A stretch of DNA of 64,000 nucleotides, taken from assembly GCF_000003815.2 (NCBI RefSeq), contig NC_049986.1:23175527-23239526 (forward strand), read 5' to 3'. The DNA comes from Branchiostoma floridae. Lineage: Eukaryota > Chordata > Leptocardii > Amphioxiformes > Branchiostomatidae. Positions within the stretch are counted from its first letter, which is position 1, and every line of letters starts with the position of its first letter. Made by a program: the position numbers and the translations under genes. The notes below the pieces were generated by a model. The model had not been told where the DNA came from. It made no database searches and was given only the letters and a program-made list of their open reading frames with translations. This document shows, piece by piece, positions 22,601 through 64,000 of this stretch.

Positions 22601-25538
22601 TAAACTCCTTGGTGATCTACAAGGTAGTTAAACCTCTTTGGGTAAACTTTAGTCTTCTATGCAGTGTTAAATACTGACCTGTTCTATACACCAGTGGAGG
22701 CACTGAATAAGGCAGCTACCATTCACTTCAGTCTCTAATTACCTGTCATTATAAATCAATACACGCATTGTTGTTGCTGGCTTTAAACACCTTCATGTAG
22801 GTGCAAAGGAGATTATATAATGACTTCTCTAAAGATAGGTGAGAAAGGGGAGGGGAGGTGATAATATCACACTCTTGTGATAAAAAGGCCTTTGTCCCAA
22901 TCTCAAGGATTTTAGAGCATGTAAAGAGTTCCAGATGAGGACAGGGTGTTGTTCTGATTGATCAATGTTCTGTGATCTGATCTGATCTGGTGACGGTTGA
23001 TTATTATTTTCTATTGGGCACTTAGAACTTCATTAAACACAGCTGTCCAGTAGGTATCAAAAACCTAATAAATAAGATTCATTTAGCACCAGTGTTTAAT
23101 GAATTTCTAGGTGTCCACGCACCCGGCTCGGGACACTTCTAATATTGTGTTACAGTGTCATAACTAACATAAAATATGACTGGTGAATGCCACCTGGCTA
23201 TATGCTAATAAAGGATCAATGTTTTACCCTGAGGGGTGCATCATGAGATAAAGCCGCCAACTGAATGTATCATTTGATTTACTACAGTTTAGAATTCAGT
23301 AAATAGTTACTGGAAGTTCCGAAAATAATTTCATCAGGTTGGCACTGATAATAGGATAAAGGTTTTTACACAACATGTAACTAAAAGTACTGTACTTTCA
23401 TTGTACAGTACTTTTCTTATGGACTCCAATGATTATCCTATTAGGGCACCCTACCCTTACAGTACATGTGCAATTTACAATAATTGAATTTATACTTTTA
23501 AGGGAAGCTTAGGCCTGTCATGAAATTTATGAATTTTGTGTTTATGTTCCTGACTTGCACCTACATGTACAATCAAATTGGCTTAGATACTAATAAACCC
23601 TAAGTGGTGATGTTAAAGAATTAAAGAAAAAAATGAAAGAAGTTCAAGCTTCTGTACTTCTGAAAAATATGAGTAGCCACTGAAGGAAATGCATTTTCTT
23701 GAAGTGAAGTTCATTCATAGGTCAGTTATTTCTAATGCCAGGCATCTCCAGCAACAGTCAATAAAACTAGGAAAACAAAACAATAAAAAATGCCTCCATT
23801 ATATATCTGTTTTACATAGTTAAAGTCAAGTCTGAAACATCTAATGAAATCTAATGCATTGTTTAACAGTTTCAAAACAAAATTAAATGCATAAAGAATG
23901 CTTCCTGTCATTGTCAAGGCCATTCCTGCAGAAATTCCTGCAGGAAACATTCTTCCTGCAGGAATTTACCTTTCTCCTGCAGGAATTTCTGCAGGAATGC
24001 CTGCAGCATTCCTGCAGGAAAAATGCTTCCTGCAGGAATTCCTGCAGGAAAAACGCTTCCTGCAGGAATTCCTGCAGGAATTCCTGCAGGAAGAAAATTT
24101 TCAAAATGAATATTCATGAAAGTTATTATCATATTTCACAACTGTACATCATACTTGTCAATCATATGTAAAGACTTTGCACCAAGTGCTTTTATATTGA
24201 AAATATTAGCACATTTCAAAATGGGAAAAACGGAATTCCAATCTTAAGATGGAGCTTCTTATATAATGATAGTGAAGTCTTCAGGTTTATCATTTGAACA
24301 TCGTTCCTATGAGAAATGAAAAGTCCCAGCATCGTAAAATTCACTGAAACAGGAACATATAAACAGACTGCATTGTGACTCTATGGCAAGCCAAGCCCAC
24401 CTACAGTAACATTACAGCAGATAATACGTCTTTGGTTGATGTGCTCTTGCTGAACATCCGATGACATGTTGAAAAAAAAAATGGTAACGTAAATTATATG
24501 GTAACGTAAATTATATTTATGCTTTTAATGATAAATAAAATTTTAACAAACAGCTCTGGAAAGATTAACTCTGCAGGCAATTACTTATCTGGGAGCATTC
24601 TTTCCTATGAGTACAAAAGTAATGATCTTTCTATAATTCTAAGGGACTTATTATGGTAACGTAAATTATATCAAAAAAGTGACAAACGGCCTGAGATTGG
24701 CGGTTATAGTCATGTTTCCAACATTCGTGTTTTATGTGTTCTGTCATTTGTTTGTTACGCAACACCACTGTTTAGCAGATAAAACAGTGAAAAAATTATC
24801 GGAAAATGTCTTTTCGTAAGCGAATTACACCCAACAGAAGTTCGGTAACGTAAATTATACAAAAGTTGGCGACAAGAATAAAACGGCATCTGACGTAAAA
24901 AGGTCGTCTGCTGGACAAGTTCATCAACACCTGACAAGCTGGCCTAAGTGGTTGATGTAAATTATGACTGAAAATTTAAAGAACTAACGTCTTTTCATTA
25001 TCAGAATGCCACGATATTCACCTTTATAGCATTTCCGACACATGTTTTTAGCGTGTTTCTAAGGAAAACCTTACCCGGGACGACCAAAAGGTAACTAACA
25101 ATGGTGGGAAAACATTGCTTAGCATATTACTATCATGTACTTGTAACGGAAAAGGGCAAAATACGTAGTCATTGTGTCTTTTAAGAAAACTGTGGCCCGC
25201 TGCTTATGTGCGACAGCAATTTGCCCCTTTAACGAGGAATGGGCGATATACTAATAAAGGTGCTTTTTAGCTGTAGTATATTATATATTACTAGACTTCT
25301 TTTCTTGAAGTTATGTTTGTCAAACTGTAAGTCTTAGAATATTTTTGATGTGTTGTTAAAGATCCAAGCCTTACGAAGAGAAATAACCAGCGACCAACTA
25401 TCCGCGACCATTCAGCTGCTACAAGCCAGCAGTGAAGAACAGCAGAGGTGGATACAGGAGAAACGTACACAAGTCACTCAGATCAGGAACAAAGTACAAA
25501 ACCTTCAGATACTGAAAGAGCAGCTTGGAATCAGGTAG
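4629..25538 (+). CDS. Laminin gamma-like chain, C-terminal two-thirds (L4 domain, laminin EGFs, coiled coil), 16 exons
   Basis: Exons: 4629-4758, 5381-5576, 7404-7565, 8019-8183, 8512-8616, 9315-9458, 9976-10124, 10807-11047, 11584-11765, 12243-12509, 12879-13116, 13597-13775, 13976-14184, 14794-14893, 15645-15710, 25362-25538. Phases agree throughout, giving about 900 aa. The order is a laminin IV-A (L4) domain ([25 protein letters not shown]), then laminin EGF modules ([17 protein letters not shown]..., CELCDNN, CSCSPWG), then [10 protein letters not shown] opening about 600 residues of coiled coil with many Asn glycosylation sites. L4 plus a coil without LG domains means a gamma chain, which trimerises with alpha and beta in basement membrane. 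Oddities: the first exon begins mid-codon, so the N-terminal LN and EGF region lies outside the window or is missing. There are fewer EGF modules than in vertebrate gamma-1, and the C-terminus stops at LKEQLGIR without the usual Cys-containing tail. Confidence 0.9.
5099..5377 (+). repeat. Two partial tandem copies of a laminin L4 exon (decoy exons)
   Basis: Two copies of the 3' splice site plus roughly the first 110 bases of the L4 exon ([20 protein letters not shown]...) start at about 5099 and 5241. The complete exon follows at 5381. Spacing is 142 and 137 bp. Each copy has its own pyrimidine tract and CAG acceptor but ends before any donor, and runs into the tract of the next copy. They look like abortive exon duplications. 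If spliced in, they would give truncated products. Confidence 0.88.
5955..6330. mobile_element. hAT-like nonautonomous element (MITE), copy 2
   Basis: A 376-bp relative of the element at 1564-1941 lies in the same orientation in a laminin intron. An exact 8-bp duplication ATCATTTT flanks it (5947-5954 and 6331-6338). The copies differ at scattered bases. Confidence 0.85.
6806..7020. mobile_element. Decayed Harbinger-like MITE
   Basis: The left end reads GGCAACACCAATTTATTTG. The right end is its inverse, ending AAATAAAATTGGCGTAGCC. These match, with divergence, the ends of the cleaner element at 29493-29853 and lie next to TAA/TTA. Further degraded relatives are visible near 7780, 31415, 32100-32320 and 34470-34740. 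Confidence 0.6.
8752..8960. repeat. Fragment of a CAGTCCAACCTG-ended DNA transposon family
   Basis: The sequence starts TACAGTCCAACCTG, followed by repeated CGACCACCT...GGCCA motifs. It is related to the more complete element at 35886-36393. I could not place a matching right end, so this is probably truncated. Confidence 0.55.
10145..10800. repeat. AGT-rich tandem repeats and tRNA-like SINE fragments in a laminin intron
   Basis: 10150-10370 holds repeated AGTAGTAGTA runs and a loosely duplicated block (ACACTACACCACACCA occurs twice). At 10480-10570 there is a tRNA-like stretch with a B-box-like GGTTCGAATCC. A partial relative follows at 10660-10770. The related phrase GTGTAACAGTGGGTTCA recurs at 18577. 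I read these as remnants of a tRNA-derived SINE, not a working tRNA. Confidence 0.5.
11403..11541 (+). repeat. Partial tandem copy of a laminin coiled-coil exon (decoy exon)
   Basis: About 100 bp covering the 3' end of the upstream intron, the acceptor and the exon start ([18 protein letters not shown]) precede the full exon at 11584-11765 with a period of about 130 bp. The copy breaks off after about 60 coding bases (TLNQMY). A GTAAGA at about 11517 could serve as a weak donor but would change the frame of the mature message. The intact exon is preferred. Confidence 0.82.
12636..12664. repeat. Short interstitial telomere-like array
   Basis: (CCCTAA)n grading into (CCCTAG)n, about five units, lies in a laminin intron just after a GA-rich run at 12555-12600. 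It is the plain metazoan telomere hexamer but very short. Confidence 0.75.
14345..14512. repeat. (CATC)n microsatellite
   Basis: Long CATC/CCAT tetranucleotide tract with CCGT/CCGTATG interruptions, itself duplicated as a roughly 60-bp higher-order unit. Reading frames through it (HPSIHPS...) are repeat artefacts. Confidence 0.95.
16690..17034. repeat. 345-bp inverted repeat, left arm, with CCTGCAGGAATT palindromic array
   Basis: This arm is the reverse complement of 23916-24260 with one difference seen by eye. The first 165 bp are unique sequence beginning AAGAAGCTCC. The rest is a tandem array of the self-complementary dodecamer TTCCTGCAGGAA with TTTTT and ATGCTGCAGGCAT interruptions. Outside AAGAAGCTCC and GGCCTT the two flanks diverge sharply. 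It lies in the last laminin intron. Confidence 0.92.
18575..18720 (+). repeat. tRNA-derived SINE fragment
   Basis: The stretch GGCGACAGCGGTAGCGTACTGG followed by TGGTTTGAATCC has the spacing of A- and B-box promoter elements of RNA polymerase III. It follows GTGTAACAGTGGGTTCA, a phrase shared with the SINE debris at 10660. No full tRNA cloverleaf is supported. Confidence 0.5.
18827..18964. repeat. Foldback repeat with about 45-bp arms
   Basis: GGAATATACACCGG...GAGTTCGGCT at 18827-18872 is mirrored by AGCCGAACTCGTCTAG... at 18920-18964. The spacer contains a C run and AAGCTTCCCAGAGAGGCC. That spacer phrase recurs at 19050-19078 beside another C run, so the unit is partly duplicated. Confidence 0.75.
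19388..20580. repeat. Unclassified repeat block bounded by TTAACGGTRAATT minisatellites
   Basis: Three units of about 30 bp (GGTAACGCTTAACGGTAAATT and variants) at 19388-19480 and about five more at 20415-20575 bracket a core. The core contains several diverged copies of a segment with GAAATGCTATTTCCTGCATTTT (near 19810, 20000, 20160 and 20335). No coding sequence is convincing. This may be one transposon with subterminal repeats, or a decayed satellite. Confidence 0.6.
20655..20760 (-). repeat. tRNA-like SINE fragment, minus strand
   Basis: Read on the minus strand it gives GAGTGGTAAATGTGTTGGGTTCATGAGCTGG and then CAGGTTAAAATCCTGGGAGCC, resembling A and B boxes. The flanking AGACTAATTAGACTAGTC matches phrases in the SINE debris near 10300-10700. 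It is too degraded for a tRNA gene. Confidence 0.45.
21177..21398. repeat. Small inverted-repeat element
   Basis: AGATCAAGGAGGTTG near 21180 and CAACCTCCTTGATCT near 21384 are perfect inverses about 200 bp apart. Further GATCAAGG motifs lie just inside the left end. Probably a foldback MITE. No target duplication is clear. Confidence 0.5.
21888..22103 (-). pseudogene. Fragment of a non-LTR retrotransposon C-terminus
   Basis: The 71-codon minus-strand stretch contains [20 protein letters not shown] followed by CHFIVYC. This has the CxxC...DExHxxxxC arrangement common at the C-terminal end of LINE-type polyproteins. Flanking frames are closed, so this is a decayed fragment in the last laminin intron. 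Confidence 0.6.
23916..24260. repeat. 345-bp inverted repeat, right arm
   Basis: Mirror image of 16690-17034, separated from it by 6.9 kb. The palindromic CCTGCAGGAATT array and the AT-rich outer part are both retained. The near identity means the pair is young or kept alike by gene conversion. The DNA between the arms shows no transposase I can recognise. Confidence 0.92.
24482..24965. repeat. Cluster of GGTAACGTAAATTATA motifs
   Basis: The motif occurs twice in tandem at about 24482-24515, again near 24655 and 24844, and in a weaker form near 24952. One more copy is far upstream near 15730, just after the penultimate laminin exon. It resembles the TAACG...TAAATT core of the 19.4-20.6 kb block. 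Function unknown. Confidence 0.5.
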
Positions 25539-44552: not shown

Positions 44553-47500
44553 ATGATGTCGCATGGATTTTATCTAACTCTTGTGGTGGGTTTAATGGCT
44601 GTGCGGTCGGGCCTGTGCGTTTTTAGCGAGGAGCATGTTCTGCGGAGGGTGGAGAGTGAAGTAAACATCCCACCGGTGGGGAACACTCGTCTGGTGGTAC
44701 ATATCATGGGTCGCTACAATGTAAGTAGTATAATTTCTTTATTTCAGGCACTCATCGGCCCATATGAACAAAGACAAACGTGAAAAACATAGAATATGTG
44801 CAATGCAGCATATTGAAATATCCTAGAAATACCATAGCTATGTACAGAGGCGCCGTCAGAGATTGCTGAAGAATGGGTTTGCGGTAGTAGTAGTAGTCCA
44901 CTGTGTTAGTAGTATGTACTTGATATTACACATAGCCAGTTGCTTGAGTAATATCTATTTGGCTTATCTTATAATTATCACCTGGATGTGTAACCTTCAT
45001 CGATGTATACGTCATATTCTTGTGTTCTAATCCATAAATTCTGTTTACTGTTTTTTAAATCTATTATTTCTCGATAGCTACAATTTTTTTAAACCTGTGA
45101 CGCGTTACATCAGTAGAACTAGAAGCCAAACACACATTATTATTGAAGGCAACAGGGCTTTCCCTTTTTAAGAGCCAGATGTTATATTGGCAGCCCTGTC
45201 TGTGCGCGTTGAACAGCGAAACCATGAAATAAACCTCGACGTACGTACATTTTACAACAGTTTCTTTTCTCCTAAAGGTTGGGTCACACCTGCGTATATA
45301 CTTATGAGGCGCGTATGGGAGTATTTGCCTCCACCAGGCCCCGCAGGTCGTTGGAAAAATAATAGAAATTGGACAAACGTAAACAGGTAACATGTCAGAC
45401 GAGTTAGCTGGGTCGCTAACCATACTTCTCGGTCAGCTAACTCATCTGGCATGTTATGTATCTATATTTGTCCAATTTGTACTATTTTTCCCGCGACCTG
45501 AGGAGCCGGGTAGAGACTAAGAGCTTCATACGCACCTCAAATGGACTTAAATGTATACGCATGTGTGACCCCACCTTTACTTCCATCTTTGTCCCAGGTG
45601 AGCCACCGTGTGCAGTGCTCCCAACTGTGCTTTCTCACCGCGGGATGTCAGTCCTACAACTACCATGACGGGGACACCACGTGCGAGCTTTTGTTTGACT
45701 TAAAGGCAACCTAAGCAATATTACAGTGTTAAAATATTTATCTTGCTTCTTTGTCCCAGGCGAGTCACCGCGTGCAGTGCTCCCAGCTGTGCTTCCTCGC
45801 CGCGGGTTGTCAGTCCTACAACTACCATGCCGGGGACGCCACGTGCGAGCTGAGCGATCAGAGAAAGGACGACTTTCCGCTCGACGCTGTGGAGGGGGCC
45901 GGGTGGGATTACTACGATAGCTACTCGCTCTTCATTCCAAGGGTAAATCTGTTGTTTGACACAACATGGTGAATAAATGAGCAAATGCTACAAAATGTAG
46001 AGAATATGGAATCGTTACGTAGCGTGTACTCAGTCTATATGATAGTTTGATACATTGAGCTATGTTGATCTAATTTTTAAAAGCCCCCACCACAAATCAA
46101 GAACTGGGCTCGACCGACTTGTTGACGAGCTCCAAATGGGCATTTTCGGCCAAAAGAAGTACGGACGACGTTCTGGCGACTAATAGGCCTTTTTTTAGCG
46201 ATTTTAGCAGCTCGTCCGTTGGGATTTAAAGCTCCGTGCACGTGTGATGTCAGCTGTGCACCAAAAAGGCAGAAAAGACAATAACTTAAACCTTTCGGAT
46301 TGACACAGCTAGTCCAGTCAAAGTTGTGACCGGAAAAATTTTGTACCGTGTACAATTGTCGTGCAATAATTTAAAAGTTCATCATTGCCATTTCCCCCAG
46401 GTCCTGTGGTACGAGTGCTCCCGCCTCATCAACCCGTGCGAGAATGGCGGGGTGTGCACCCGGAAGGTTCTGATGGCTGATGGGGAGGAGAGGCAGCCGT
46501 GCGACCCGCTGTGCGTCTGTCCTGTCGGCACTGCGGGCCCAAACTGTGGTAGTAAGTCGCCTCCACCAATCATTCCTACGGCAGTATGGGGATCGTAAAA
46601 TTCGGCAAAAAATCGGGAAATTGGCCAGGGAGTCAGTCCACGCTTAGGTTCATGTTTCCGCGTCCGGCCAACTCCTCTGGTAGCAAAACTCCCTTGGCAA
46701 ATTTGTTCTCCCTATAACAGCAAAGTTGAGACTAGGTACAAAGTAAGTTATTTTCGTTGTAACATCGAAAGCTTTAAAGATGCTGTGTCAGTGAAATCAA
46801 ACCACATCCCATCTTCGTTGCTGATTAAACAACGTTATCTTTAATTCTCTTTATTTAATTCACCAAATCGCACGATGAAATAAGCTGAATTTTGTGCAAT
46901 TTACAAAATTTACACTCATCATTTCAGCATTAAGGTATTCACATCTAAGATCGCACGATTGTACAGATGACGTTGAATTTTCTCTCACATCTATTAAAAC
47001 ATGACTCGTTCCCCCACGTACAGCCTGTGATTGGCAGCAGGTGTTCGCCACGGTCAGAGGAACCGGTCAGCAGGTAATTGATGCCTGGAACGCCGGACTG
47101 CATGACGAGATGCTCCACAACAAAAGTCTGCTGGTGCATCAGTGGGAAACACTCGGGATCAAGAAGGTATGTTCAGAACTTACAACATGTACTTTTTGTA
47201 ACGATTTTGCTCAGTGCAAGGCCGTTGACCACTTCTAGGCACTGAACTACGCTCACTGTAGCAGCATCTCTTCTATCGAAGTCAGAAACATCGAGCTTCA
47301 GCAAGTTCGACTAACTGATTCAATAGGCAAAGCCCGACACTCTCCACTCCATGGCGCAACTGGTAGAGTGTTGCGCTCGAAACCTAGAGGTCCTGAGTTC
47401 GATACTCGCCGTGCCCCTGACGTTGTGCACTTAGGAAATTAACTTTACAGAACCTGGGCACCTGACTTTAGGGCTTTTACCTTCTGTCTGTACTTTGTAT

Positions 47501-48530
47501 TTGAGTGTAGTGGAGTACCATATTGTCCTCATGTGTCTCAACGCAAATTATAAAAACACCTCTATTAGGCCTCTCTTATTGCTCTAAGATAAAGATTGCA
47601 CTGGAAACCTCTGGTGAAGAGGATGGCGAGGTGATGCTGAACTGAGAAAACCCAGACAAGTCCAGCTGGTTCTCCAAATCCCTTGACAATAAGAAGAGTG
47701 ATGAATGTCACGAAAGAAAATCACTTTTTAATCCAGTTGTGAAGACTGAATTGTCTTTACTCCTAAGGTAAAGGTTGTACTGGAAATCTCTTGCGAAGAG
47801 GATTTCGAGATGATCTTCAACGGAGAAGACACGGACAAGTTCGGCTGGTTCTCCCAATGCCGTGGCACTACAAAAAGTGTTATGGATATCGCTCAAAACA
47901 TCTCATTTCTTATCTAGTTGTGAAGACTGAATTGTCTTTATTTTCAAGGTAAAAGTTGTACTGGAAACCTCTGGCGAAGAGGATGTGGAGATGATCCTCA
48001 ACAGAGAGAACACAGACAAGTTCAGCTGGTTTATTCCAGACAGTGACACTAAAGAAAAGTTGTGAATGTCTCTCTACACTTCCTTACGAAAATCCAGCCT
48101 TCTTAGAGATTGAACTGTCTTTACTCCTAAGGTAAAGGTTGTACTGGAAGCCTCTGGCGAAGAGGATGTCGAGATGATCTTCAACAGAGTTGTGGACTTC
48201 ACTCAAAATGTCGTAGAGAATGAATTTGTCTCTTTGTTTTTAAGGTAAAAGTTGTACTGGAAACCTCTGGCGATGAGGATGTGGAGATGATCTTCAACGG
48301 AGAGAACACGGACAAGTCCAGCTGGTTCTCCCAGTCCCGTCTGCTCTCCTCACCATGGACGGACCTGCCTGGCGAGACGGCGAACTTCTTCTCTGTTGAG
48401 GGAGAGCTGAACCCTGTGACTCGCAGGTTGTACCTCGTTTCTAAAAAAGAAAAGAAACGTCAAGGAGTTTATTTACAAAGACACAACACACATGCACACG
48501 AACATATTGGCACAGTTCACACACACACAC

Positions 48531-48596
<66 letters not shown>

Positions 48597-49668
48597 ACTC
48601 ACACAAATAGCCAACACTAGTATTGTCAGTAGAATATTGTTCATAACTCGCCATTGTCCTTTGTATATCTACTATGTTTATACCATGTACTTGCAATTAG
48701 CCCTCGGACACGAACTTGCAAATAAACTTCTTATATATACGCACACACACGGGCTCGCACAGACACACACACACATACACACTCACGCACACACACACAC
48801 ACTTAATCTTCCTAGCAAAACTATTTGCCCAGAGAACTGTAAAAAAAAAAACCTCTCTGTTTCTCCAGATCTTTCTACATCAACCAGCAATATGGCGGGT
48901 GTGCCGGTGACGAAGGATGGCTGGCTGTAGGCGAGACCGGACCGGGGGCTGTCTGTGACTGGGAGAGGGCGTCTTACCCGGAGTTACCGGCTCTCGTGTA
49001 CTCCAAGTCAACCGCACGTGTCAACTGGAACGACGGTTGGTGCCGCAACATATTCTGTTACTGGAGCTTTTGATTTAGGTCATATTGTTACATATAGTTG
49101 TAACCACGTCGCATAACAATTGGTCTTGTGAAGAATCTCAGTCCCCTACATGGTAAGATATCTACGTATGGCGTAAATTCAATGTGAAGTTCTGATCTAA
49201 AAGAACGAAGGAAGGAAGCAATATACTATTAAATGAATGAATGACGAATGGATGGATGAGTGGATGGATGAATAGTTTGATGGCGAATAAATGGATGTTG
49301 AATGAATCAATCGATGAATGAACAAATTAATCAATGAATGCGAATGAATGCGAATGGATACGAATGAATGCGAATGAATCAATCAATGAATCAATCAATC
49401 AATGAATGAATAAATGAATGAAGGTGTCTTACGCTTTATGCTCTTCGCCCATGTGGAAAGTACAGAACAAACTTTACATATGGCAAAAGGACAGAGACAC
49501 AAATTAGCATAATTGATAAATTGCACACCTAGACTTAGTCTCAACAAACGGCCAAGTACATGCAATAATTGCCTCATTTTTTCTCTTTTCTTTCCTTTTC
49601 ATTTAATTTCAGACAGCCAAGTTGGGAGAGCTGATCGCATGGTTATCTACATCAAGACTTGCGAATGA
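44553..49668 (+). CDS. Gene A: secreted apple/PAN-EGF protein with Cys/Trp-rich C-terminal domain, seven exons
   Basis: Exons: 44553-44720, 45760-45942, 46401-46551, 47024-47166, 48245-48426, 48869-49035, 49613-49668, all in phase, 349 aa. Exon 1 encodes a signal peptide (two adjacent ATGs at 44553 and 44556) and a linker ending NTRLVVHIMGRYN. Exon 2 is apple/PAN-like ([19 protein letters not shown]...CEL). Exon 3 is an EGF module (CENGGVCTRK...CVCPVGTAGPNC). Exons 4-7 encode CDWQQVFATVRGTGQQ, KVVLETSGDEDVEMIF, GGCAGDEGWLAVGE...CDWE, LVYSKSTARVNWND and VGRADRMVIYIKTC. This last domain recalls the C-terminal domain of EGF-bearing cnidarian skeletal-matrix proteins. That is a memory-based resemblance with low certainty. 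The product is presumably extracellular, with a binding or adhesion role. Acceptor-only exon copies sit before exon 2 and exon 5. AATAAA at 49874-49879. Confidence 0.82.
45275..45577. mobile_element. Foldback MITE in intron 1 of gene A
   Basis: Inverted ends AAAGGTTGGGTCACACCTGCG and CGCATGTGTGACCCCACCTTT lie about 300 bp apart and are bordered by TA. The centre is itself palindromic (ACATGTCAGACGAGTTAGCTG against CAGCTAACTCATCTGGCATGT), so the whole element can fold. Confidence 0.78.
45598..45693 (+). repeat. Partial copy of the apple/PAN exon in gene A (decoy exon)
   Basis: The acceptor (TTTGTCCCAG) and the first 95 bases of the apple exon ([20 protein letters not shown]...CEL) are repeated 162 bp upstream of the intact exon. 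The reading frame then runs to a stop (LLFDLKAT) with no donor. If used, it would make a short secreted fragment. Confidence 0.85.
47345..47420 (+). repeat. tRNA-like SINE head in gene A intron
   Basis: ATGGCGCAACTGGTAGAGTG and GAGTTCGATACTCGCC fit A- and B-box spacing, followed by a SINE-like CACTTAGGAAATTAACTTTAC tail. The same sequence is at 55153-55228 in gene B, so it predates the duplication. Confidence 0.6.
47589..48244 (+). repeat. Array of four partial exon-5 copies in gene A
   Basis: Acceptor-plus-exon-start copies begin at 47589, 47768, 47949 and 48132. The intact exon follows at 48245. Spacings are 179, 181, 183 and 113 bp. Each begins like VKVVLETSGEED and runs into a stop or loses the frame before any donor. 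Gene B keeps only two such copies. Confidence 0.9.
48505..48605. repeat. (CA)n microsatellite
   Basis: Long CA/ACAC tract in intron 5 of gene A, with a shorter one at 48743-48801. The gene B equivalents are 56019-56070 and 56213-56285, with different lengths. Confidence 0.95.
49225..49425. repeat. (GAAT)n/(GGAT)n tetranucleotide tract
   Basis: Impure GAAT, GGAT and TCAATCAA repeats in the last intron of gene A. The counterpart in gene B is at about 56955-57125. Confidence 0.9.
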
Positions 49669-51516
49669 GAGGCCAACAGTTCAGCAAACATGGCATTTCA
49701 TAGCAAACTGTCTATCACGTTCCTTTAATGAATGTTGTGAGACCGAATATTGTAGTATAGAGTAAGCTATTATCATAGTAAGTACAAGTATAACTATATT
49801 AAGATGATGGTAAATGAAATATATTGAAATATTCAGTGCGTTTACAGTGTATATCATCTTTCCAAATAAGGCAAATAAAAATACAAAGCACAAACCAACA
49901 TTTGCTTACTGATCTGAGTGTAACTGTGTACATACTGTGTAAATTTCAGTATTTGTATAGCTCGTATTATCGCCGGTTTGTACAAGAAGATCAAATAACC
50001 CTTGATCATTGAAATCTAAAGACGGTCAAACTTGTCAGTGAGACCATGTGTCGCTGCAACCACATTCGGGTACAAGCCATATTAAAACAGTCCCATATGT
50101 TACATATTAGTTACACATTTCTACCCTGTCCTCAACAACTCCAGTCACAACCCGCATTAAAACAGCCCCGTCCATTTTACATAGCTTAAACCCCATGTTG
50201 TCCTCAGCAACCACATTCGGGCACAAGCCACATTAATCAGTTCCGTCCGTTTTACACAGTTAATCCCGCCCTGTCTTGAGCAACCATCAGTTCCTTGCGT
50301 GATTTCTGAATTCAGATGTGATTGTACAAGAAAACATTTACCGTCACATTAGAATTTCTTGAGTATTAAGGATATCCTGATTTCACAGAATTCCAACATA
50401 GTGTGGTTATCTGTTATTAGCAACATTTACGTATACATACCGTAACATTTTTTTCCATGTACTTATCATACATGTACATCAAAAAGATTTATAGTATTGA
50501 TAGGGAAAACGCGTTGATTTTGTAACATAATCTCAAACAGGAAGTAAAGCATTTTAACAAAGAATATAAGATGCAAACGGACTAAATTTCAGCACCTGGC
50601 GCTCAGATTATAGTTTAAAGTTACTATGATGTGGCACCTTTTTTATCGAATATATCAATACATGTACTGTGATTTAGATAGATCAGAAAATTGAAGCAGA
50701 AGGTAGCTTATATATGTCACAATGGCCGGAACAAGCTGTCATTCGGTGCTAACTCAGGTGACCTCAATCCGACAGTAATTGCCCCAGGTGCGGTCATAGG
50801 ACTGTAGTTTCTGAACCACTCACATCGGGAAGGACGCACCCCTACTCTTTCCGATTGTAAAGTACCATACATAGACTTTGTTGACGTAACCTATTTCAGA
50901 CACAATACTACACGGAAGTGTGAAGAAAGACTTTGTCTAGTGTAGCCGGTTCACAATGGCATCGCTAAGTCCCATGTCTCAGTACCTGACAATAAAATGT
51001 GAAAACCGTTCATTTCAAGTTAAATTGACTCAAGTGAACCTCATCTTCAAAGATTAACTGATAAGAGCATGCTTTTGTGTGTGAATACTTAAAAAATGGC
51101 CGGCATTTTTTCTGTAACATGCGGTACATTATTAATTGAACAAAAGCCACGAATAGAAAAAAAAGACCAAGATAAACAAAATGTTCTGCATAGTACTCCA
51201 GTGCTCAACATGTCTAGATCCAGTTACAGATTTCTATTAAAGAAGCATCTCATCAAGTATTCTTCCAACAAATGACAACAAGTAAAAGGTTTTGACGCTT
51301 AACAGTGTCAATTGGCGTGTGTGAGAGACAGCATTATCAATACTAATACCCATCCTACGGACCACCTACATACCTAAACATAGATTAATGCCAATAATAA
51401 TAATAATAATGCCAATGACGTTATATGCACACTACGTCAAAGACGATGCTATGCCGAAAGAGGTACAAACGCTGCAAAACGTTTTCCTGTAAAGCTGTTC
51501 TCTTCGGAACGTACCA
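49669..51516. other. A-B intergenic region, duplicated downstream of B
   Basis: No exon seen. It contains the gene A 3' UTR with AATAAA at 49874, an AACCACATTCGGG...ACAAGCCA(C)ATTA(AA)CAG direct repeat (50058-50245), a SINE-tail relative near 50735 and presumably the gene B promoter. It is repeated almost unchanged at 57363-60051, where a LINE has inserted. Confidence 0.6.
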
Positions 51517-54500
51517 ATGAAGGTGCTGCAGTTCTACGTGTTTTTTGCGGCTGCTCTTCTGCAGTCGAGTCTGTGTTATCTGACTGAAGAGGAGATACTG
51601 CGGAGGGTGGAGACAAACGTGAACAGTCAACCTGTAAAGAACACACGTCTGACGCAGCATCTCATCCAACGGTACCAGGTACGGTTTAAGTCTAAGGTAT
51701 AATTTCACCTTGTGTATAAGTGCAGCCAGTAGGTACCTAATCTGAGTAACGAGGCTGTTTGTTTGTTTGTTTTATTGGGATCTCCATTAGTGATGCTAAA
51801 TGTAGCATCACATTATTCCTGGAGTCCTACAATCCATAAACAAACAAAAAACAAAAACATAAGCAAAAAATCTTGTACAATACGTAAACAGAAAGGTAAC
51901 AAATCAACTGACTCTGAACTGAGGTAACTTAGAGTGAAGGTGGGAGATCAGAGGTCAAATCAAAATGTTAGAAGCCATAACCTTTGCTGCCTGACGAAGC
52001 ATCTCACCCAACGGTACCAGGTACGGTTTACGTCTAATGTATAATTTCCCCTTGGTGTGTATAAGTGCAGCCAGTGGGTACCTAATTAATCTGAGTAATG
52101 GGGCTGTTAACGTGCTCGAACACGGGACCCCCATTCCATGTCCGCTCCGAAAGACGAATGCAACCCTTTACAACATGTCTAAGCTTAGGGGACCCTGGGA
52201 TCGAACTCAGAACCACAGTCACACAGATCCACGGTATTGGATCCATACAGCCAAGCAGTGGGGTTGCGTTACCGCATGCTACAGAGACATGCATTAACAG
52301 TCTAATTGCGAACAAATGAGGTAAGAAATTGGTCCTGAGCAGCATTCGTAATCTATTGGTCTGTTAATCTGTAAAATATGACTTAAGATGTTGACATCTA
52401 GCATTATTTTTGTTGACTATTTGTAAATAACTTAGGATTCAGTCTTGCCAGGACAAAACATATCTATACTATCTTTCAAGAGACATATGCGGCATGGTAG
52501 AGATAAGATACCCCTCACACTTCCGCTACATCTGGGACTTTTCGTTCGAGTGGCTAAGGTAAAAATCTTAAGATTGCTTTAAACATTTGCTTTTAAAGGT
52601 TACCCATCGGCTGCAGTGCTCTCAGCTCTGCTTTCTCACCAAAGGCTGTCAGTCCTACAACTACTACGAAGAGGAAGGAATTTGCGAGCTGAACGATCAG
52701 ACTTATCTCCAAGGACTTGTCGACTTTTCCTTCCGAACCGGACAAGACTCAGGATGGGAGTACCACGACCGCTATTCATTTTACATGATAAGGGTAAATT
52801 TACTGTTTCATGTACACATTTTGCATGTTAACAGAATTGCTGCATAATGCGACGTTGTGCTTTTCTCATTAGCCTACAAAAAGAAATGTAACTTACCAAG
52901 GGGGACATTATCATTGCTTGTTTTCTAGCTATCATACTGCAACAAAAACCTACATATTATGGAAATCCATCCATTGAACGAAAGGTGTAAAAAAAATTAA
53001 CTTCGAACAAAAGTACATTTTTTTGCCAGAACATTATTTATCTTACGTCAAATGATACTTAATAGAGCAACCAGTTATGGATGAAGGAAACGATATCCAA
53101 TTGCTAGAGTAACTATTATTTAGCGTGCCTTATTACCAAAATAACCGGTGCAATGGCCTAGTGATTAGAGTGTTCGCCTTGCATTCGGTAGGTCGTGAGT
53201 TCGAACCCCGGTCGGGTCATACCAAAGACTTTAAAAATGGTACATGCTGCTTTCTCTGCTTAGCACTCAGCACTAAAGAGAAAGAGTATGGAAGTTAAAC
53301 ACACATCACTACCAGCGGACCAGCCCCCTGCTGTAGTGGCTTGCACATGTGTGGCCCAAGGGCTACTCGAAATGGAGATGGGCGCCACCCCAAAAGCATC
53401 TGCACAGATGTAAGGGTAACTTTAACTTTAACTTTTTTTTTATTACCAAAATATCTTACCGTCATCGACGTATCATACAAAATTCATGTTATCTACTGTT
53501 CGCCTAGCCTAATCCTATGTTTTCGGATCTGTATGTATACACGTAGGCCTGGTGGCACGAATGCTCCGACCAAAATCCCTGCGAGAACGGAGCTGTGTGC
53601 ACCCGTAAGGTCCTGAAGAGTTCTGGGGTAGAGCGGCCGCCGTGTGCCCCGCTCTGCGTCTGTCCGGTGGGGTACTCCGGCCGACACTGTGAAAGTGAGT
53701 TTCAACTTCTTAATGACTATCCGTACGTCCTTTGAATTATGCAAATATAATCTACCTTAGAAAGTACCATTGCCGCGAGTCAAACCCAAAACATAAATAA
53801 ACAATTACTATAGCCTTCCTCATGTCAGAATGACCAATCACGTGACGTTTCGTACAGACAAGCTTTATTGACACTTGAAATAAGCAACGGCATTAAGGGC
53901 CTGGCGGTGCAAGCTTTCTTGCACTTCTGTCCTGTGGTACGAGTGCTCCCGCCTCATCAACCCGTGTGAGAACGGCGGGGTGTGCACCCGGAAGGTTCTG
54001 ATGGCTGATGGGGAGGAGAGGCAGCCGTGCGAACCGCTGTGCGTCTGTACTGTCGGCACTGCGGGCCCAAACTGTGGTAGTACGTATCCACCAGACCTTA
54101 TGCATGTGGGGTACAGGGATCGTAGAATTCGGGGAAAAATATCGGGAAATTGGCCAGGGGAGTTAGCCCACGCTTAATGTGCACTCCCACTGTACTTGTT
54201 CACTGCATGATTCGTTCATTGCGTCACTGTTTTTTTTTCTCTCCGATTTTTGTATAAGTTAGATATTGGGTAATACGGTAAAGTTTGACTTATAAGACGA
54301 CAAAGTACACAAAAAGTAAGAAAAGTACTTTATCTCTAAAATTCGTTGAGTATCTGTCGAACTCCACAGTGGCGCAAGCTTGACGCAAATGCAATGAGAG
54401 TGAAGTTTTAGGTTCATGTTTTCCCTCCGGAGCCAGCCAACTCCTCTGGTACCCAAACTCCCCTGGCAAATTATTCTCCCTATCAGCGTATATATTATAT

Positions 54501-56015
54501 ACGTAGTCAGTCTGGTAGAGACTAGGTAGTACGTTATTTATGTTGTAACACCGAGAGATGCTGTGTCACTCTCAAACCACATCCCATTTTCGTTGCTGAT
54601 TGAATAACGTTAACCTTAGTCATAATTTTTAGATAAAGACTAAAGCTAAGGTTGTTTCATCATGCGATTTTGTGAATCAAAAGCCAACCTGAATTGCGTG
54701 GCAATGTACAAAATCTACACTCATCATTTCAGCATTAAAGTATTGATGTAAAAGTTTACAAGATTTTACAGATGACGTTCAATCAACTATCACCTTTGCT
54801 GAAACATGACTCGTTCCCCCCACAGCCTGTGATTGGCAGCAGGTGTTCGCAACAGTCAGAGGAACCGGTCAACAGGTGATTGATGCCTGGAACGCCGGAC
54901 TGCATGACGAGATGCTCCACAACAAAAGTCTGCTGGTGCATCAGTGGGAAACACTCGGGATCAAGAAGGTATGTTCAGAACTTACAACATGTACTTTTTG
55001 TAACGAGTTTGCTCAGTGCAAGGCCGTTGACCACTTCTAGGCACTGAACTACGCTCACTGTAGCAGCATCTCTTCTATCGAAGTCAGAAACATCGAGCTT
55101 CAGCAAGTTCGACTAACTGACTCAATAGGCAAAGCCCGACACTCTCCACTCCATGGCGCAACTGGTAGAGTGTTGCGCTCGAAACCCAGAGGTCCTGAGT
55201 TCGATACTCGCCGTGCCCCCGACGTTCTGCACTTAGGAAATTAACTTTACAGAACCTGGGCACCTGACTTTAGGGCTTTTACCTTCTGTCTGTACTTTGT
55301 ATTTGAGTGTAGTGGAGTACCATATTGTCCTCATGTGTCTCAAAGTAAATTATAAAAACACCTCTATTCTCTCTTATTGCTCTAAGATAAAGATTGCACT
55401 GGAAACCTCTGGTGAAGAGGATGGCGAGGTGATGCTGAACTTAGAAAACGCAGACAAGTCCAGCTGGTTCTCCAAATCCCGTGACAATAAAGAAGAGTGA
55501 TGGATGTCACGAAAGAAAATCATTTTTTATCCAGTTGTGAAGACTGAATTGTCTTTATCTTTAAGGTAAAAGTTGTACTGGAAACTTCTGGCGATGAGGA
55601 TGTCGAGATGATCCTCAACAGAGAGAACACAGACAAGTTCAGCTGGTTTATTCCAGACAGTGACACTAAAGAAAAGTTGTGAATGTCTCTCTACACTTTC
55701 TTACGAAAATCCAGCCTTCTTATATATTGAACAGTCTTTACTCCTAAGGTAAAAGTTGTACTGGAAACCTCTGGCGATGAGGATGTGGAGATGATCTTCA
55801 ACGGAGAGAACACGGACAAGTCCAGCTGGTTCTCCCAGTCCCGTCTGCTCTCCTCACCATGGACGGACCTGCCTGGCGAGACGGCGAACTTCTTCTCTGT
55901 TGAAGGGGAGCTTAACCCGGTGGCTCGCAGGTTGTACCTAGTTTCTAAAAAAAGAAACGTCAAGGAGTTTATTTACAAAGACACAACACACATGCACACG
56001 AACATATTGGCACAG

Positions 56016-56069
<54 letters not shown>

Positions 56070-57362
56070 TACACAATAGCCAACACTAGTATTACAGTAG
56101 AATATTGTTCATAACTGTCCATTGTCACTTGTATATCCACTATATTTATACCATGTACTTGCAATTATTCCTCGGACACGAACTTGCAAATAAACTTCTT
56201 AATATATATACGCACACACACGGGCTCCCACAGACACAGACACACACACACACATACACACTCACGCACAAACACGCACACACACACTAACGTTAAATCT
56301 TCCTAGTAAAACTATTTGCCCAGAAAAACCTCTCTGTTTCTCCAGATCTTTCTACATCAACCAGCGCTATGGCGGGTGTGCCGGTGACGAAGGGTGGCTG
56401 GCTGTAGGCGAGACCGGACCGGGGGCTGTCTGTGACTGGGAGAGGGCGTCTTACCCGGAGTTACCGGCTCTCGTGTACTCCAAGTCAACCACACATGTCA
56501 ACTGGAACGACGGTCGGTGCCGCAACATATTCTGTTACTTAACTGTCTTATAACGTTTCCTATTGGACGACTGAAATTGTCTTCATTCATAGTTAGAGTA
56601 TAAAAGACCTGTTTCTTCTAGGTCACTTCAGTGTCACACTGACGAAGGATAGTGGATTCTATCCGAAACGTCTGACCGTTTCCAAAACCATATCCAGTTG
56701 CTTGAGTAACTATTTTTGGCGTATCTTAATACCTGGATGTCTAACCTACATCGACGTTTTCTGTTACTGTAGCTTTTAATTTAAGGTCACATTATAACAT
56801 GTATGTTGTAACCACGGTCTTGTGAAGAATCTCAGTCCCCTACATGGTAAGATATCTACGAATGTCGTAAATTCAATGTGAAGTTCTGATCTAAAAAAAA
56901 AACAATCATGATATCATAGGAATAAATGAACAACGGAAGGAAGCAATATACTTTTACATGAATGAATGAATGACGAATGGATGGATGAATGGTTGGATGA
57001 ATGGATCGATGGCGACTGAATGGATGCTAAATGAATGAATCAATGAATGAAGGAATTAATTAATGCGAATGAATGCGAGAGAATGCGAATGAATGAATGA
57101 ATGGATGAATGAATGAATGAAGGTGTCTTACGCTTTATGCTCTCCGCCCATGTAGAAAGTACAGAACGAACTGTAGATATAGCAAAAGGACAGAGACACG
57201 AATTAGCATAATTGATAAATTGCACACCTAGACTTAGTCTCAACAAACGGCCAAGTACATGCAATAATTGCCTCATTTTTTCTCTTTTCTTTCCTTTTCC
57301 TTTCAGAAAGTCAAGTTGGGAGAGCTGATCGTATGGTTATCTATATAAAGACCTGCCAATGA
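51517..57362 (+). CDS. Gene B: chimeric apple/PAN-EGF protein with gene A-type C-terminal domain, seven exons
   Basis: Exons: 51517-51678, 52599-52793, 53547-53694, 54826-54968, 55749-55930, 56346-56512, 57307-57362. Phases agree, giving 350 aa. The signal peptide ([20 protein letters not shown]), apple exon ([20 protein letters not shown]) and EGF exon ([10 protein letters not shown]...[12 protein letters not shown]) match gene C almost exactly. Exons 4-7 (CDWQQVFATVRGTGQQ, KVVLETSGDEDVEMIF, GCAGDEGWLAVGE, VGRADRMVIYIKTC) match gene A almost exactly. The switch falls at 53929/53930. The leftover A-type EGF exon there cannot be spliced in. All other splice sites and the stop are intact, so the gene could be expressed as a secreted protein with a new domain pairing. 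Several young transposons interrupt its introns. AATAAA at 57577-57582. Expression is unknown. Confidence 0.82.
51990..52090 (+). repeat. Partial copy of the signal-exon 3' end in intron 1 of gene B
   Basis: CTGACGAAGCATCTCACCCAACGGTACCAGGTACGG and the following intron sequence repeat the end of exon 1 and its donor (51649-51715), about 340 bp downstream. Between them lies a retroelement-like piece (TTTTATTGGGATCTCCATTAG...). The copy has a donor but no acceptor, the reverse of the other exon fragments. It is absent from the matching place in gene C. Confidence 0.75.
53144..53439 (+). mobile_element. tRNA-derived SINE with 14-bp target duplication and known empty site
   Basis: The tRNA-like head has GGCCTAGTGATTAGAGTG (A box) and GAGTTCGAACCCCGG (B box). 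The tail has TAACTTTAACTTTAAC and a T run. It is flanked by TTATTACCAAAATA at 53130-53143 and 53440-53453. Gene C has the uninterrupted site at about 61109-61122, so this insertion followed the duplication. Located in the apple-EGF intron of gene B. Confidence 0.93.
53930..54080 (+). pseudogene. Orphaned EGF exon of gene A type at the duplication junction
   Basis: This matches the gene A EGF exon (46401-46551) but lacks the upstream polypyrimidine tract and AG. The preceding bases are GCACTTCTG from the C-type intron. The donor region has also changed (GTAAGT to GTACGT). The exon needs phase 0 at its start, whereas the upstream gene B EGF exon ends in phase 1, so inclusion would shift the frame. 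It should be skipped. Confidence 0.9.
54177..54408. mobile_element. MITE with TA duplication, absent from gene A
   Basis: Inverted ends ATGTGCACTCCCACTG and CAATGAGAGTGAAGTTT are flanked by TA. The empty site in gene A reads CCACGCTTAGGTTCATG at about 46646. It is a diverged relative of 37021-37256. Confidence 0.8.
55389..55748 (+). repeat. Two partial exon-5 copies in gene B
   Basis: Acceptor-plus-exon-start copies begin at about 55389 and 55566, before the intact exon at 55749. The first has lost the early stop seen in gene A's copy and reads further (KSSWFSKSRDNKEE) before stopping. Two fewer copies than in gene A. Confidence 0.88.
56540..56758 (+). mobile_element. Short retroelement with 10-bp target duplication, absent from gene A
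   Basis: Flanked by TTCTGTTACT on both sides (56530-56539 and 56759-56768). The gene A intron has a single copy of that site near 49050. The body has GACGAAGGATAGTGGATTC, GTTTCCAAAACCATATCCAG and CCTGGATGTCTAACCTACATC. Diverged relatives lie at about 37409-37505 and 44930-45010. Confidence 0.85.
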
Positions 57363-58114
57363 GAGGCCAAAAGTTCAGCAAACCTGGCATTTCGTGGCAA
57401 ACTGCCTATCACGTCCCTTTAATGAATGTTGTGAGACCGAATATTGTAGTATAGACTAAGCTATTATCATAGTAGGTTCATGTACAGCTATATTGACTAT
57501 ATTAAGATGATGGTAACTGAAATATATGGAAATATTCAGTGCGTTTACAGTGTATATCATCTTTCAAAATATGGCAAATAAAAATACAAAGTACAAACCA
57601 ACATTTGCTTACTGATCTGAGTGTAACTGTGTACATACTGTGTAAATTTCAGTATTTGTATAGCTCGTATTATCGCCGGTTTGTACAAGAAGATCAAATA
57701 ACCCTTGATCATTGAAATCTAAAGACGGTCAAACTTGTCAGTGAGACCATGTGTCGCTGCAACCACATTCGGGTACAAGCCATATTAAAACAGTCCCATA
57801 TGTTACATATTAGTTACACATTTCTACCCTGTCCTCAACAACTCCAGTCACAACCCGCATTAAAACAGCCCCGTCCATTTTACATAGCTTAAACCCCATG
57901 TTGTCCTCAGCAACCACATTCGGGCACAAGCCACATTAAACAGTTCCGTCCGTTTTACACAGTTAATCCCGCCCTGTCTTGAGCAACCATCAGTTCCTTG
58001 CGTGATTTCTGAATTCAGATGTGATTGTACAAGAAAACATTTACCGTCACATTAGAATTTCTTGAGTATTAAGGATATCCTGATTTCACAGAATTCCAAC
58101 ATAGTGTGGTTATC

Positions 58115-58933
58115 ACTTGGATTACGCGGATGACGTGGCTATCCTAGCTGAAGTCATGGAAGCCCTCCAACTTGCCCTCCAGGCCATGGACACGGAAACC
58201 CATCCGCTGGGCCTGCAGGTCAGCTGGGGAAAGACCAAGGTCCAGAGCCTCAGCGACTACGAGCCTCCTCCACCAGGACTGGTGATCAACTCTAACCCGG
58301 TTGAAGCCGTTGACAAGTTCTGTTACCTTGGAGGCACCATAACATCAGACTGCAAGAGCGACACAGACATCCAGCTCCGCATCGGCCGGGCCGTCGCGGC
58401 AATGGCCAGTCTGGACAGGGTCTGGACCAGCAGCAAGATCTCTGCGCAGACAAAGATAAGGCTCTACAACAGCCTCGTGCTGTCCATCCTTCTCTACGGG
58501 GCAGAGACTTGGACCCTCACTGCTGCCCAGGAGCGTCGACTCGACGCCTTTGATACTAAGTGCCAAAGGAGAATCCTGGGGATCAGGTGGCATGACTATG
58601 TATCCAATGCCACCCTGCGCGAGACCACCAGTCAACCCCAACTGTCCAGTAAGGTGCGCCAGGCCCGTCTACGACTGTTTGGTCACATCGCCAGGACGGA
58701 GCCACCTCTGGAAACAGCTGCCCTTCTGAGGGAGCCGACCCCACCCAACTGGTCCCGCCCCAGGGGCCGTCCCAGGCATACCTGGCAAGAACAACTGAAG
58801 GACGATCTGAGGGCTGCCGGCCTCGACCTTACCACCGCCTGGGTGCTGGCCCTCAACAGACCTATGTGGAGATCTGTGTGTGCAGGCGCTACGCTCCATC
58901 CCGGAGCATGCGGACCTGAGTGAGAGTGAGAGA
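58115..58933 (+). mobile_element. 5'-truncated non-LTR retrotransposon carrying the reverse transcriptase C-terminal half
   Basis: An 819-bp insert is flanked by GTGGTTATC (58106-58114 and 58934-58942). Unit 1 has the empty site at about 50402. An open frame runs from 58117 to the stop at 58921-58923. It begins exactly at the catalytic LDYADD box, followed by FCYLGGTITSD, LSILLYGAETWTL and a C-terminal RPRGRPRHTWQEQL. The 3' end is a TGAGAG-like short repeat and not poly(A). The frame is unbroken, which indicates recent insertion. Only the C-terminal part is present, so it cannot move by itself. The clade (RTE- or Jockey-like) is not resolved. Confidence 0.93.
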
Positions 58934-60051
58934 GTGGTTATCTGTTATTAGCAACATTTACGTATACATACCGTAACATTTTTTTCCATGTACTTATCAT
59001 ACATGTACATCAAAAAGATTTATAGTATTGATAGGGAAAACGCGTTGATTTTGTAACATAATCTCAAACAGGAAGTAACACTAAAGCATTTTAACAAAGA
59101 ATATAAGATGCAAACGGACTAAATTTCAGCACCTGGCGCTCGGATTATAGTTTAAACACTATGATGTGGCACCTTTTTTATCGAATATATCAATACATGT
59201 ACTGTGATTTAGATAGATCAGAAAATTGAAGCAGAAGGTAGCTTATATATGTCACAATGGCCGGAACAAGCTGTCATTCGGTGCTAACTCAGGTGACCTC
59301 AATCCGACAGTAATTGCCCCAGGTGCGGTCATAGGACTGTAGTTTCTGAACCACTCACATCGGGAAGGACGCACCCCTACTCTTTCCGATTGTAAAGTAC
59401 CATACATAGACTTTGTTGACGTAACCTATTTCAGACACAATACTACACGGAAGTGTGAAGAAAGACTTTGTCTAGTGTAGCCGGTTCACAATGGCATCGC
59501 TAAGTCCCATGTCTCAGTACCTGACAATAAAGTGTGAAAACCGTTCATTTCAAGTTAAATTGACTCAAATGAACCTCATTTTCGAAGAAAAACTGATAAG
59601 AGCATGCTTTTGTGTGTGAATACTTAAAAAATGGCCGGCATTTTTTCTGTAACATGCGGTACATTATTAATTGAACAAAAGCCACGAATAGAAAAAAAAG
59701 ACCAAGATAAACAAAATGTTCTGCATAGTACTCCAGTGCTCAACATGTCTAGATCCAGTTACAGATTTCTATTAAAGAAGCATCTCATCAAGTATTCTTC
59801 CAACAAATGACAACAAGTAAAAGGTTTTGACGCTTAACAGTGTCAATTGGCGTGTGTGAGAGACAGCATTATCAATACTAATACCCATCCTACGGACCAC
59901 CTACATACCTAAACATAGATTAATGCCAATAATAATAATAATAATGCCAATGACGTTATATGCACACTACGTCAAAGACGATGCTATGCCGAAAGAGGTA
60001 CAAACGCTGCAAAACGTTTTCCTGTAAAGCTGTTCTCTTCGGAACGTACCA

Positions 60052-62097
60052 ATGAAGGTGCTGCAGTTCTACGTGTTTTTTGCGGCTGCTCTTCTGCAGT
60101 CGAGTCTGTGTTATCTGACGGAAGAGGAGATACTGCGGAGGGTGGAGACAAACGTGAACAGTCAACCTGTGAAGAACACACGCCTGACGCAGAATCTCAT
60201 CCAACGGTACCAGGTGCGGTTTAAGTCTAATGCATGATTTCACCTTGGTGTGTTGGTGCAGCCAGTAGGTACCTAATAAATCTGAGTAATGAGGCTGTTT
60301 ACGTGCTAGAACACGGGACCCCCATTTCATGTCCCTTCCTAGCCAACCCTTGGATGGAACTCAGGCCCACAGTCACACAGATCCACGGCATTGGATCCAC
60401 GGTCGGCATTTGTTAATCAAATGCAAAGACAAAATGTATCTATACTATCTTCCATGAGACATATGGGCATGGTAGAGATAAGATACCCCTCACACTTCCG
60501 CTACATCTGGGAGTTTTCGTTCGAGTGGCTAAGGTAAAAATCTTCAAATTGCTTTAAACATTTGCATTTAAAGATTACCCATCGGCTGCAGTGCTCTCAG
60601 CTCTGCTTTCTCACCAAAGGCTGTCAGTCCTACAACTACTACGAAGAGGAAGGAATTTGCGAGCTGAACGATCAGACTTATCTCCAAGGACTTGTCGACT
60701 TTTCCTTCCAAACCGGAAAAGACCCGGGATGGGAGTACCACGACCGCTATTCATTTTACATGATAAGGGTAAATTTACTGTTTCATCTACACATTTTGCA
60801 TGTTAACAGAATTGCTGCATAATGCGACGTTCTGCTTTTCTCATCAGCCTACAAAAAGAAATGTAACTTACCAGGGGGGACATTATCATTGCTTGTTTTC
60901 TAGCTATCATACTGCAACAAAAACCTACATATTATGGAAATCCATCCATTGAACGAAAGGTGTAAAAAAAATTAACTTCGAACAAAAGTACATTTTTTTG
61001 CCAGAACATTATTTATCTTACGTCAAATGATACTTAATAGAGCATGCAACCAGTTATGGATGAAGGAAACGATATCCAATTGCTAGAGTAACTATTATTT
61101 ATCGTGCCTTATTACCAAAATATCTTACCGTCATCGACGTATCATACAACATTTATGTTATCTACTGTTCGCCTAGCCTAACCCTATGTTTTCGGATCTG
61201 TATGTATACACGTAGGCCTGGTGGCACGAATGCTCCGCCCACAATCCGTGCCAGAACGGAGCGGTGTGCACCCGTAAGGTCCTGAAGAGTTCTGGGGTAG
61301 AGCGGCCGCCGTGTGCCCCGCTCTGCGTCTGTCCGGTGGGGTACTCCGGCCGACACTGTGAAAGTGAGTTTTAACTTCGTAATGACTATCCATACGTCCT
61401 TTGAATTATGCAAATATAATCTAACTTAAAAAGTACCATTGCCGCGAGTCAAACCCAAAACATAAATAAACAATTACTATAGACTTCCTCATGTCAGAAT
61501 GACCAATCACGTGACGTTTCGTACAGACAAGCTTTATTGACATTTGAAATAAGCAACGGCATTAAGGGCCTGGCGGTTCAAGCTTTCTTGCACTTCTGAC
61601 CTAGCACTGACGTTACACCATGTAAGATAGTTTTTGCGTGCGTTCCCTTACAATTCGCATTGAGTGAACAATAGCGATACATCTTATCCATTAACATCTA
61701 GCTTGGAGGTGGTTCTAGAAAAAAACCGCAAATCTGCTTTAAATTCTACATTTCCAAGACTTTTTCTGTCGCATATTCTCGTGATACCCGTTTAACACGT
61801 TTCCTTCGCGTTGTACGCTCATTGTTACTTCTTACTTCTTACTAACCAACAGTCCAAGACTGCCAGGAAGGAAGTGGAGCGTCCTACAGAGGAAAGGTTC
61901 CCGTGACGACCACAGGAAAAGTTTGCCAACGATGGAACAGCCAGACACCTCATGGACACTCCAAAACACCCGCCAATTATCCGTCATCCGGACTGGAGCA
62001 GAACTACTGCCGGAATCCGGATGGGGAGTCCGGAGTGTGGTGCTACACCACGGATCCCGGCACGAGATGGGAACTGTGTGACGTGCCTACATGTTGA
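60052..62097 (+). CDS. Gene C: secreted apple/PAN-EGF-kringle protein, four exons
   Basis: Exons: 60052-60213, 60574-60768, 61216-61363, 61853-62097, in phase, 249 aa. The signal peptide and linker, apple/PAN exon ([29 protein letters not shown]) and EGF exon ([10 protein letters not shown]...[12 protein letters not shown]) are followed by a single-exon kringle. The kringle has [39 protein letters not shown] and [10 protein letters not shown], then the stop. Its six cysteines are all present and it ends the protein. Kringles bind ligands, often lysine-rich, in plasminogen, HGF and ROR-type proteins. Apple plus kringle resembles plasminogen or HGF architecture, but there is no protease domain here. 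The acceptor phase of the kringle exon (1) equals that of gene A's CDWQQ exon, which is what lets the two C-termini be swapped. AATAAA at 62321-62326. Confidence 0.9.
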
Positions 62098-63369: not shown

Positions 63370-63537
63370 ATGTGGGTCCTGGTACCGGTGTTTTACGTGC
63401 TTTTTGCGGCTACTCTTCTGCAGTCGAGTCTGTGTTATCTGACTGAAGAGGAGATACTACAGAGGGTGGAGACAAACGCAAACAGTCAACCCGTGAACAA
63501 CACACGCCTGATGCAGCATCTCATCCAACGTTACCAG
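63370..63537 (+). CDS. Gene D: first exon of a fourth apple/PAN-family gene (partial)
   Basis: The ATG opens a signal peptide ending FAATLLQSSLC, then the family linker [14 protein letters not shown]...NTRLMQHLIQRYQ and a GT donor at 63538. It matches exon 1 of genes B and C with a different first dozen residues. The apple exon would lie beyond the window end. I see none in 63538-64000. Confidence 0.85.
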
Positions 63538-64000
63538 GTTAGTCCTTGTTAAACTTGTAGGAGACGCTAATAATGCCTGTCAGCATGTTTTCTGCTATGG
63601 TTATATTTTCATCCTTGGTCCCGCAAAGCTGTTAACTTTGCAAAGCTAAAAAAAAAGCGTGTTGGTACAGTCATGCTCATTACTATTTTTCCTTTGCGTT
63701 TTGTGTGTTTTCAACTTATGGAGAAGAAATAACAGTATTTCTAGAGACTATAGGATCTATAGAAGTTATTTGTAAATCCCCATTGTTTTTGGAACGCGCC
63801 CTTAATATATACACCCTTGTGTTATATAAGCTATTATGAGATTATGTCCCTGGTAAGTCAGACAGGATTGTCTATAGAAATAGTAGCCCTAACATTAGCG
63901 ATAAATCCTACATAAGTCGGATAATCGTTGTCACAACTATCCAATGCAAAAAGCAACCATTTATTACTATTGGTAGATCCAACTTTTCATGCAGTGCTAC

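Follow-up and report, generated by a model that had tools for sequence, protein, structure and literature searches.

Genes at the locus

The window, by which we mean the whole 64,000-nucleotide stretch of Branchiostoma floridae DNA that was analysed, contains genes A, B, and C, all of which have complete open frames and GT-AG introns, and the start of gene D (Table 1). Another gene, E, lies beyond the window, 10.7 kb downstream of B. In E, as in B, signal, apple, and EGF exons of the C type are followed by a C-terminal domain like that of A and B, which we call the CDWQQ type. In searches against Pfam, PAN was above the cut-off in A, B, and C, the kringle was above the cut-off in C, and EGF was below the cut-off in all three.

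Table 1. Features of the locus, in window numbering
Feature	Position	Strand	Description
Gene A, parent of the 3' half of B	44556..49668	+	signal, apple/PAN, EGF, CDWQQ-type C-terminal domain; 7 exons, 348 residues
Duplication unit 1	46401..53929	+	begins with A's EGF exon (its first base), ends in intron 3 of the C-type gene
Chimeric gene B (probable)	51517..57362	+	7 exons, 350 residues plus stop
Exons of gene B	51517-51678, 52599-52793, 53547-53694, 54826-54968, 55749-55930, 56346-56512, 57307-57362	+	
Junction	53929..53930	+	1 bp shared; no N present
Remnant of A's EGF exon in intron 3 of B	53929..54079	+	acceptor absent; CxCT in place of CxCP; donor gtacgt in place of gtaagt
Duplication unit 2	53930..61598	+	same orientation as unit 1
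Reverse-transcriptase (LINE-like) fragment	58115..58930	+	about 815 bp; in unit 2 only; flanked by the short repeat GTGGTTATC
Gene C, parent of the 5' half of B	60052..62097	+	signal, apple/PAN, EGF, kringle; 4 exons, 249 residues
Gene D, start (kringle type)	63370..64000	+	runs past the window end; open frame of 250 residues
Gene E	68023-75852 (beyond the window)	+	loci L020, L021; 7 exons, 348 residues

Members of the plasminogen/HGF family carry a trypsin-like domain in addition to PAN and kringle domains. We considered gene C as a member of this family and rejected it, as there was no trypsin-like match at E-values up to 1.

Several smaller repeats are also present. A partial copy of A's apple exon (45600-45689, 91% identical) lies directly upstream of the complete exon. 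Exon 5 has incomplete tandem copies, covering its first 58-96 bases, in gene A (four, at 47588-48189) and in gene B (two, at 55388-55648). By eye, each is preceded by AG, but they are cut short; similar copies are found at another locus on the same contig (L043). In intron 1 of B, the end of the C-type exon 1 and its flanking intron occur a second time (51991-52108), and this copy is 87% identical to 51649-51759, which indicates an internal duplication. Elsewhere in the window, 16685-17034 and 23916-24265 are inverted repeats of each other, 350 bp long and 99.4% identical, with short repeats inside.

A tandem duplication with its ends in two genes

The preliminary description of this DNA proposed that a tandem duplication with ends in two neighbouring genes had created a chimera. 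Both self-BLAST and a global alignment of the two units confirm the repeat at the limits in Table 1. Homology ends at both limits, the flanks outside the units being only 41-47% identical, and divergence between the units is uneven. The copies are head-to-tail, and the two ends of the duplication lie inside different genes on the same strand (A and the C-type gene), so that intron 3 of C abuts the first base of A's EGF exon. The bases are CACTTCTG/ACCT on the C side, CCCAGG/TCCT on the A side, and CACTTCTG/TCCT at the junction. We checked both units for N and found none inside either. The reverse-transcriptase fragment in unit 2 matched two profiles: DUF6451, above its cut-off, and RVT_1 (E = 4e-4), below its cut-off.

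The exons of B also read as had been proposed: signal, apple, and EGF exons of the C type are followed by C-terminal exons of the A type, with no kringle, and both parents are complete. The exon lengths (162+195+148+143+182+167+56 = 1053 nt) correspond to the expected 351 codons in one frame, which are 350 residues and a stop. The splice sites had been described as intact. Every intron of B is GT-AG, but the donor of exon 6 is gtcggt, which is a weak site against the donor consensus; A has gttggt and E has gtaggt at this position.

Predicted skipping of the EGF remnant would keep B in frame

The frame of B is open across the junction when the remnant of A's EGF exon is skipped. Judging from the exon lengths, the EGF exons of both C and A end in phase 1, that of A begins in phase 0, and exon 4 of A begins in phase 1. 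With the acceptor of A's EGF exon still in place, splicing of the two EGF exons to each other (C exon 3 to A exon 3) would lead to a stop after 181 residues. Because the breakpoint falls on the first base of A's EGF exon, the acceptor was lost, and therefore the exon should be skipped, with C's EGF exon joining A's exon 4. Both are in phase 1 at this join, and 350 residues result. The loss of the acceptor is what makes B's frame possible: the parents' EGF exons cannot be spliced in frame, and the hybrid is readable nonetheless, as the breakpoint itself takes away the acceptor of the offending exon. The preliminary description had noted neither the remnant in B nor this loss and its effect on the frame.

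Of the 150 bases that align between the remnant and A's EGF exon, 4 differ, two synonymously and two nonsynonymously, and one of these substitutions abolishes the proline of the conserved CxCP motif. We also tried 17 AG sites in 53750-54079 as acceptors in combination with the remnant's donor. Sixteen of the 17 lead to early ends, at 169-205 residues. With the other, the exon would begin at 53885 and the product, remnant included, would have 415 residues; this counts against our best explanation. We considered the reverse order of events, with B ancestral and A derived, and rejected it, since there is no other source for B's EGF remnant.

These features suggest how B would work. The junction between the copies sets C's upstream region and its signal, apple, and EGF exons before A's C-terminal exons, as can be seen in the sequence, so B is predicted to be expressed like C, yet with A's C-terminal domain. 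The frame can be read directly; with the predicted splicing and secretion, the product would be a secreted protein of 350 residues. Overall, we think it likely that B is a real chimeric gene that arose by a 7.5-kb head-to-tail tandem duplication, is kept in frame by exon skipping, and encodes a secreted protein.

The duplication need not be recent

The event had been proposed to be recent, on the grounds that long stretches of the two units are almost identical. Near-identity does hold for 49964-51516 (9 of 1551 aligned bases differ, or 0.6%). It does not hold for the intron between A's exons 3 and 4 (67/429, or 15.6%) or for C's intron 1 (35/360, or 9.7%). By segment, the divergence between the units ranges from 0.22% to 15.62%, with a mean of 4.20% (261 of 6215 aligned bases). 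The segments are strongly heterogeneous (chi-square P ~1e-45 across 19 segments), and so are the noncoding ones (P ~1e-41 for 9 of the 11 noncoding segments, both intron-4 segments being left out). A recent duplication should show uniform and very low divergence, which is not what we see.

The divergence is also of the size found between alleles. For the Chinese lancelet, SNP polymorphism in the assembled diploid genome is reported as 4.39% (PMC4284660). Because lancelet alleles differ this much, a difference of a few percent is no proof of recency, and lancelet tandem copies that are a few percent apart need not be recent. Since the difference between the units is both patchy and allelic in size, they may have come from diverged haplotypes, in which case they can have differed like two alleles from their formation; or they can be older and partly homogenised, with gene conversion as the later patching. 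A young age for the event is not demonstrated from the B. floridae genome.

It is quite possible, although not our first choice, that the duplication is old, as its more diverged parts would show, and that gene conversion or unequal exchange resets the rest of the units again and again. This would change only the age in our best explanation. It fits the strong unevenness just described, with divergence of 12-16% in parts, and the higher dS in the 3' exons (0.126 between A and B, with dN = 0.016) than in the 5' exons (0.051 between B and C, with dN = 0.021). It also fits the clustering, within 18 bp of the EGF exon, of 3 of the 4 sites at which B and E are set against C and D. On the other hand, two haplotypes from a highly polymorphic population can give the same patchiness. 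By our own arithmetic, if divergence were exponentially distributed with a mean of 4.39%, then ~3% of segments would exceed 15.6% and ~12% would be below 0.6%.

Is B a working gene?

B might be correctly assembled and yet not be a working gene. The weak donor of exon 6 would be consistent with this, as would the use of a cryptic acceptor, given that 16 of the 17 tested AG sites yield truncated products if paired with the remnant's donor. But the frame is open, and over 1.1 kb the upstream regions of B and C are 98.5% identical. Also, dN/dS is low in the 3' half. There, 6.5 of 21 changes are nonsynonymous; taken as 7, this gives P = 0.006 under a null in which B evolves neutrally and A is frozen. 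For the 5' exons (B versus C), the nonsynonymous and synonymous rates did not differ significantly (P = 0.11). We consider a non-working B to be unlikely.

The selection result for the 3' exons is silent on B if the two units are really alleles, as it would read identically in that case. False gene gains from assembly duplications are reportedly the subject of one study. Here, the artefact would consist of two haplotypes of a single A-to-C interval that were set in tandem, and gene B would not exist. According to PMC7269912, the B. floridae assembly derives from one diploid animal, and its two haplotypes were merged by software; the mean divergence of 4.2% and the indels between the units are about what would be expected of lancelet alleles, given the 4.39% SNPs in PMC4284660. 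However, the junction is blunt, with 1 bp shared and no N, and we infer that a merging error would join the haplotypes at homologous places or across a gap. Loss of the conserved proline and an altered donor, as seen in the EGF remnant of unit 2, would also be unusual in an allele of a functional exon. Finally, we searched the same genome with the junction and with 49700-51700, and among the best 40 candidates scored per search we found no copy of either unit besides the two in the window. These searches do not separate alleles from paralogues, but together with the blunt and gap-free junction they argue to some degree against a false haplotype duplication, which we judge to be less probable still than a non-working B.

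The CDWQQ-type C-terminal domain

Exon 6 of the CDWQQ-type domain has 35 matches in the genome, including those in A, B, and E (loci L024-L053; the domain's part of B is 54826-57362). In Pfam, there was no match to the C-terminal domain above the cut-off in A or B; a match to Yeast-kill-tox that was below the cut-off spans the start of the domain, in A only. In NCBIfam, there was no match above the cut-off in A or E. The C-terminal domains of A, B, and E, when compared together to the PDB, gave one match (E = 0.16) and none above the cut-off. Judged by these searches, the CDWQQ-type domain is an unnamed family in Pfam (A, B) and NCBIfam (A, E).

An array that seems to re-pair modules

Gene B had been presented as domain shuffling close to its origin. 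That B marks the origin of a new combination is not supported, as the order of apple, EGF, and C-terminal domain is not new in B: it is present in the parent A and in E. The 5' exons of E are 93.9-96.3% identical to C's, and its 3' exons are far more diverged from A's than B's are (dS = 0.58 instead of 0.126 for A and B). Because of this divergence of the 3' exons, E is apparently an older pairing that is separate from B's.

The neighbours B and C, and likewise D and E, have a common 5' side, and each pair consists of one kringle gene and one CDWQQ-type gene. For B and C, the common side is the 1.1-kb flank described above; the 5' flanks of D and E are alike in blocks of 73-80%. Residues of the EGF domain follow the 3' module: B and E have [D/E]Q-NPCEN, and C and D have AH-NPCQN. 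The EGF exons of B and C (53547-53694 and 61216-61363) have 5 differences, which are clustered in one stretch. Across the 5' exons of B to E, 5 sites unite B with C and 4 unite B with E, and all 3 of the clustered B+E sites alter amino acids. As the sites are few, we view this cluster as a lead only. In a tree of the 5' exons, E tentatively groups with B and C, with D outside (58% bootstrap), and B groups, also tentatively, with C (61%).

A search with the apple exon gave 9 matches in the genome, and 6 of these are in the array from A to E. The other 3 are distant copies; an ORF with a CUB match lies downstream of one, and an ORF with a C-type-lectin match lies downstream of another. Of four ORFs tested downstream of distant apple-EGF copies, two had no Pfam match. 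At the third distant apple-EGF copy (L072), we found neither a kringle nor a CDWQQ-type exon at a convincing E-value.

The array seems to re-pair 5' and 3' modules. A bolder proposal, which we offer tentatively and regard as somewhat doubtful, is that A-B-C-D-E is a small shuffling site. Tandem duplication would have paired one signal-apple-EGF 5' module repeatedly with a kringle or with a CDWQQ-type domain, the EGF then adapting to its partner, and the event that formed B may still segregate in the population.

Comparison to known chimeras

Among the paper titles surveyed, none concerns the A-E locus. The formation of chimeric genes by tandem duplication is itself established: PMC5460883 describes 76 chimeras in 15 lines, often with changed expression. 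Like those chimeras, B has the 5' end of one gene fused with the 3' end of an adjacent one at the junction of a tandem duplication, and it is probably a chimeric gene of this known kind. As far as the chimeras are described in PMC5460883, B differs in that its parents are paralogues that share apple and EGF modules, and in that its breakpoint, at the edge of an exon, deletes an acceptor and thereby prevents a clash of phases.

Exon shuffling in lancelets is described in PMC4284660, which reports that subgenic rearrangements occur at a high rate, that they are also seen when the two haploid Chinese-lancelet assemblies are compared, and that they are biased towards phase 1-1 exons. The fusion in B is at a phase-1 intron, in line with this bias. 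Unlike the domain recombination that PMC4284660 describes, B has no new pair of domains, as its modules were already paired in A and E. If the array is indeed a shuffling site, then it would offer a manageable natural system in which to test how domain combinations are assembled in lancelets at the high rate given in PMC4284660.
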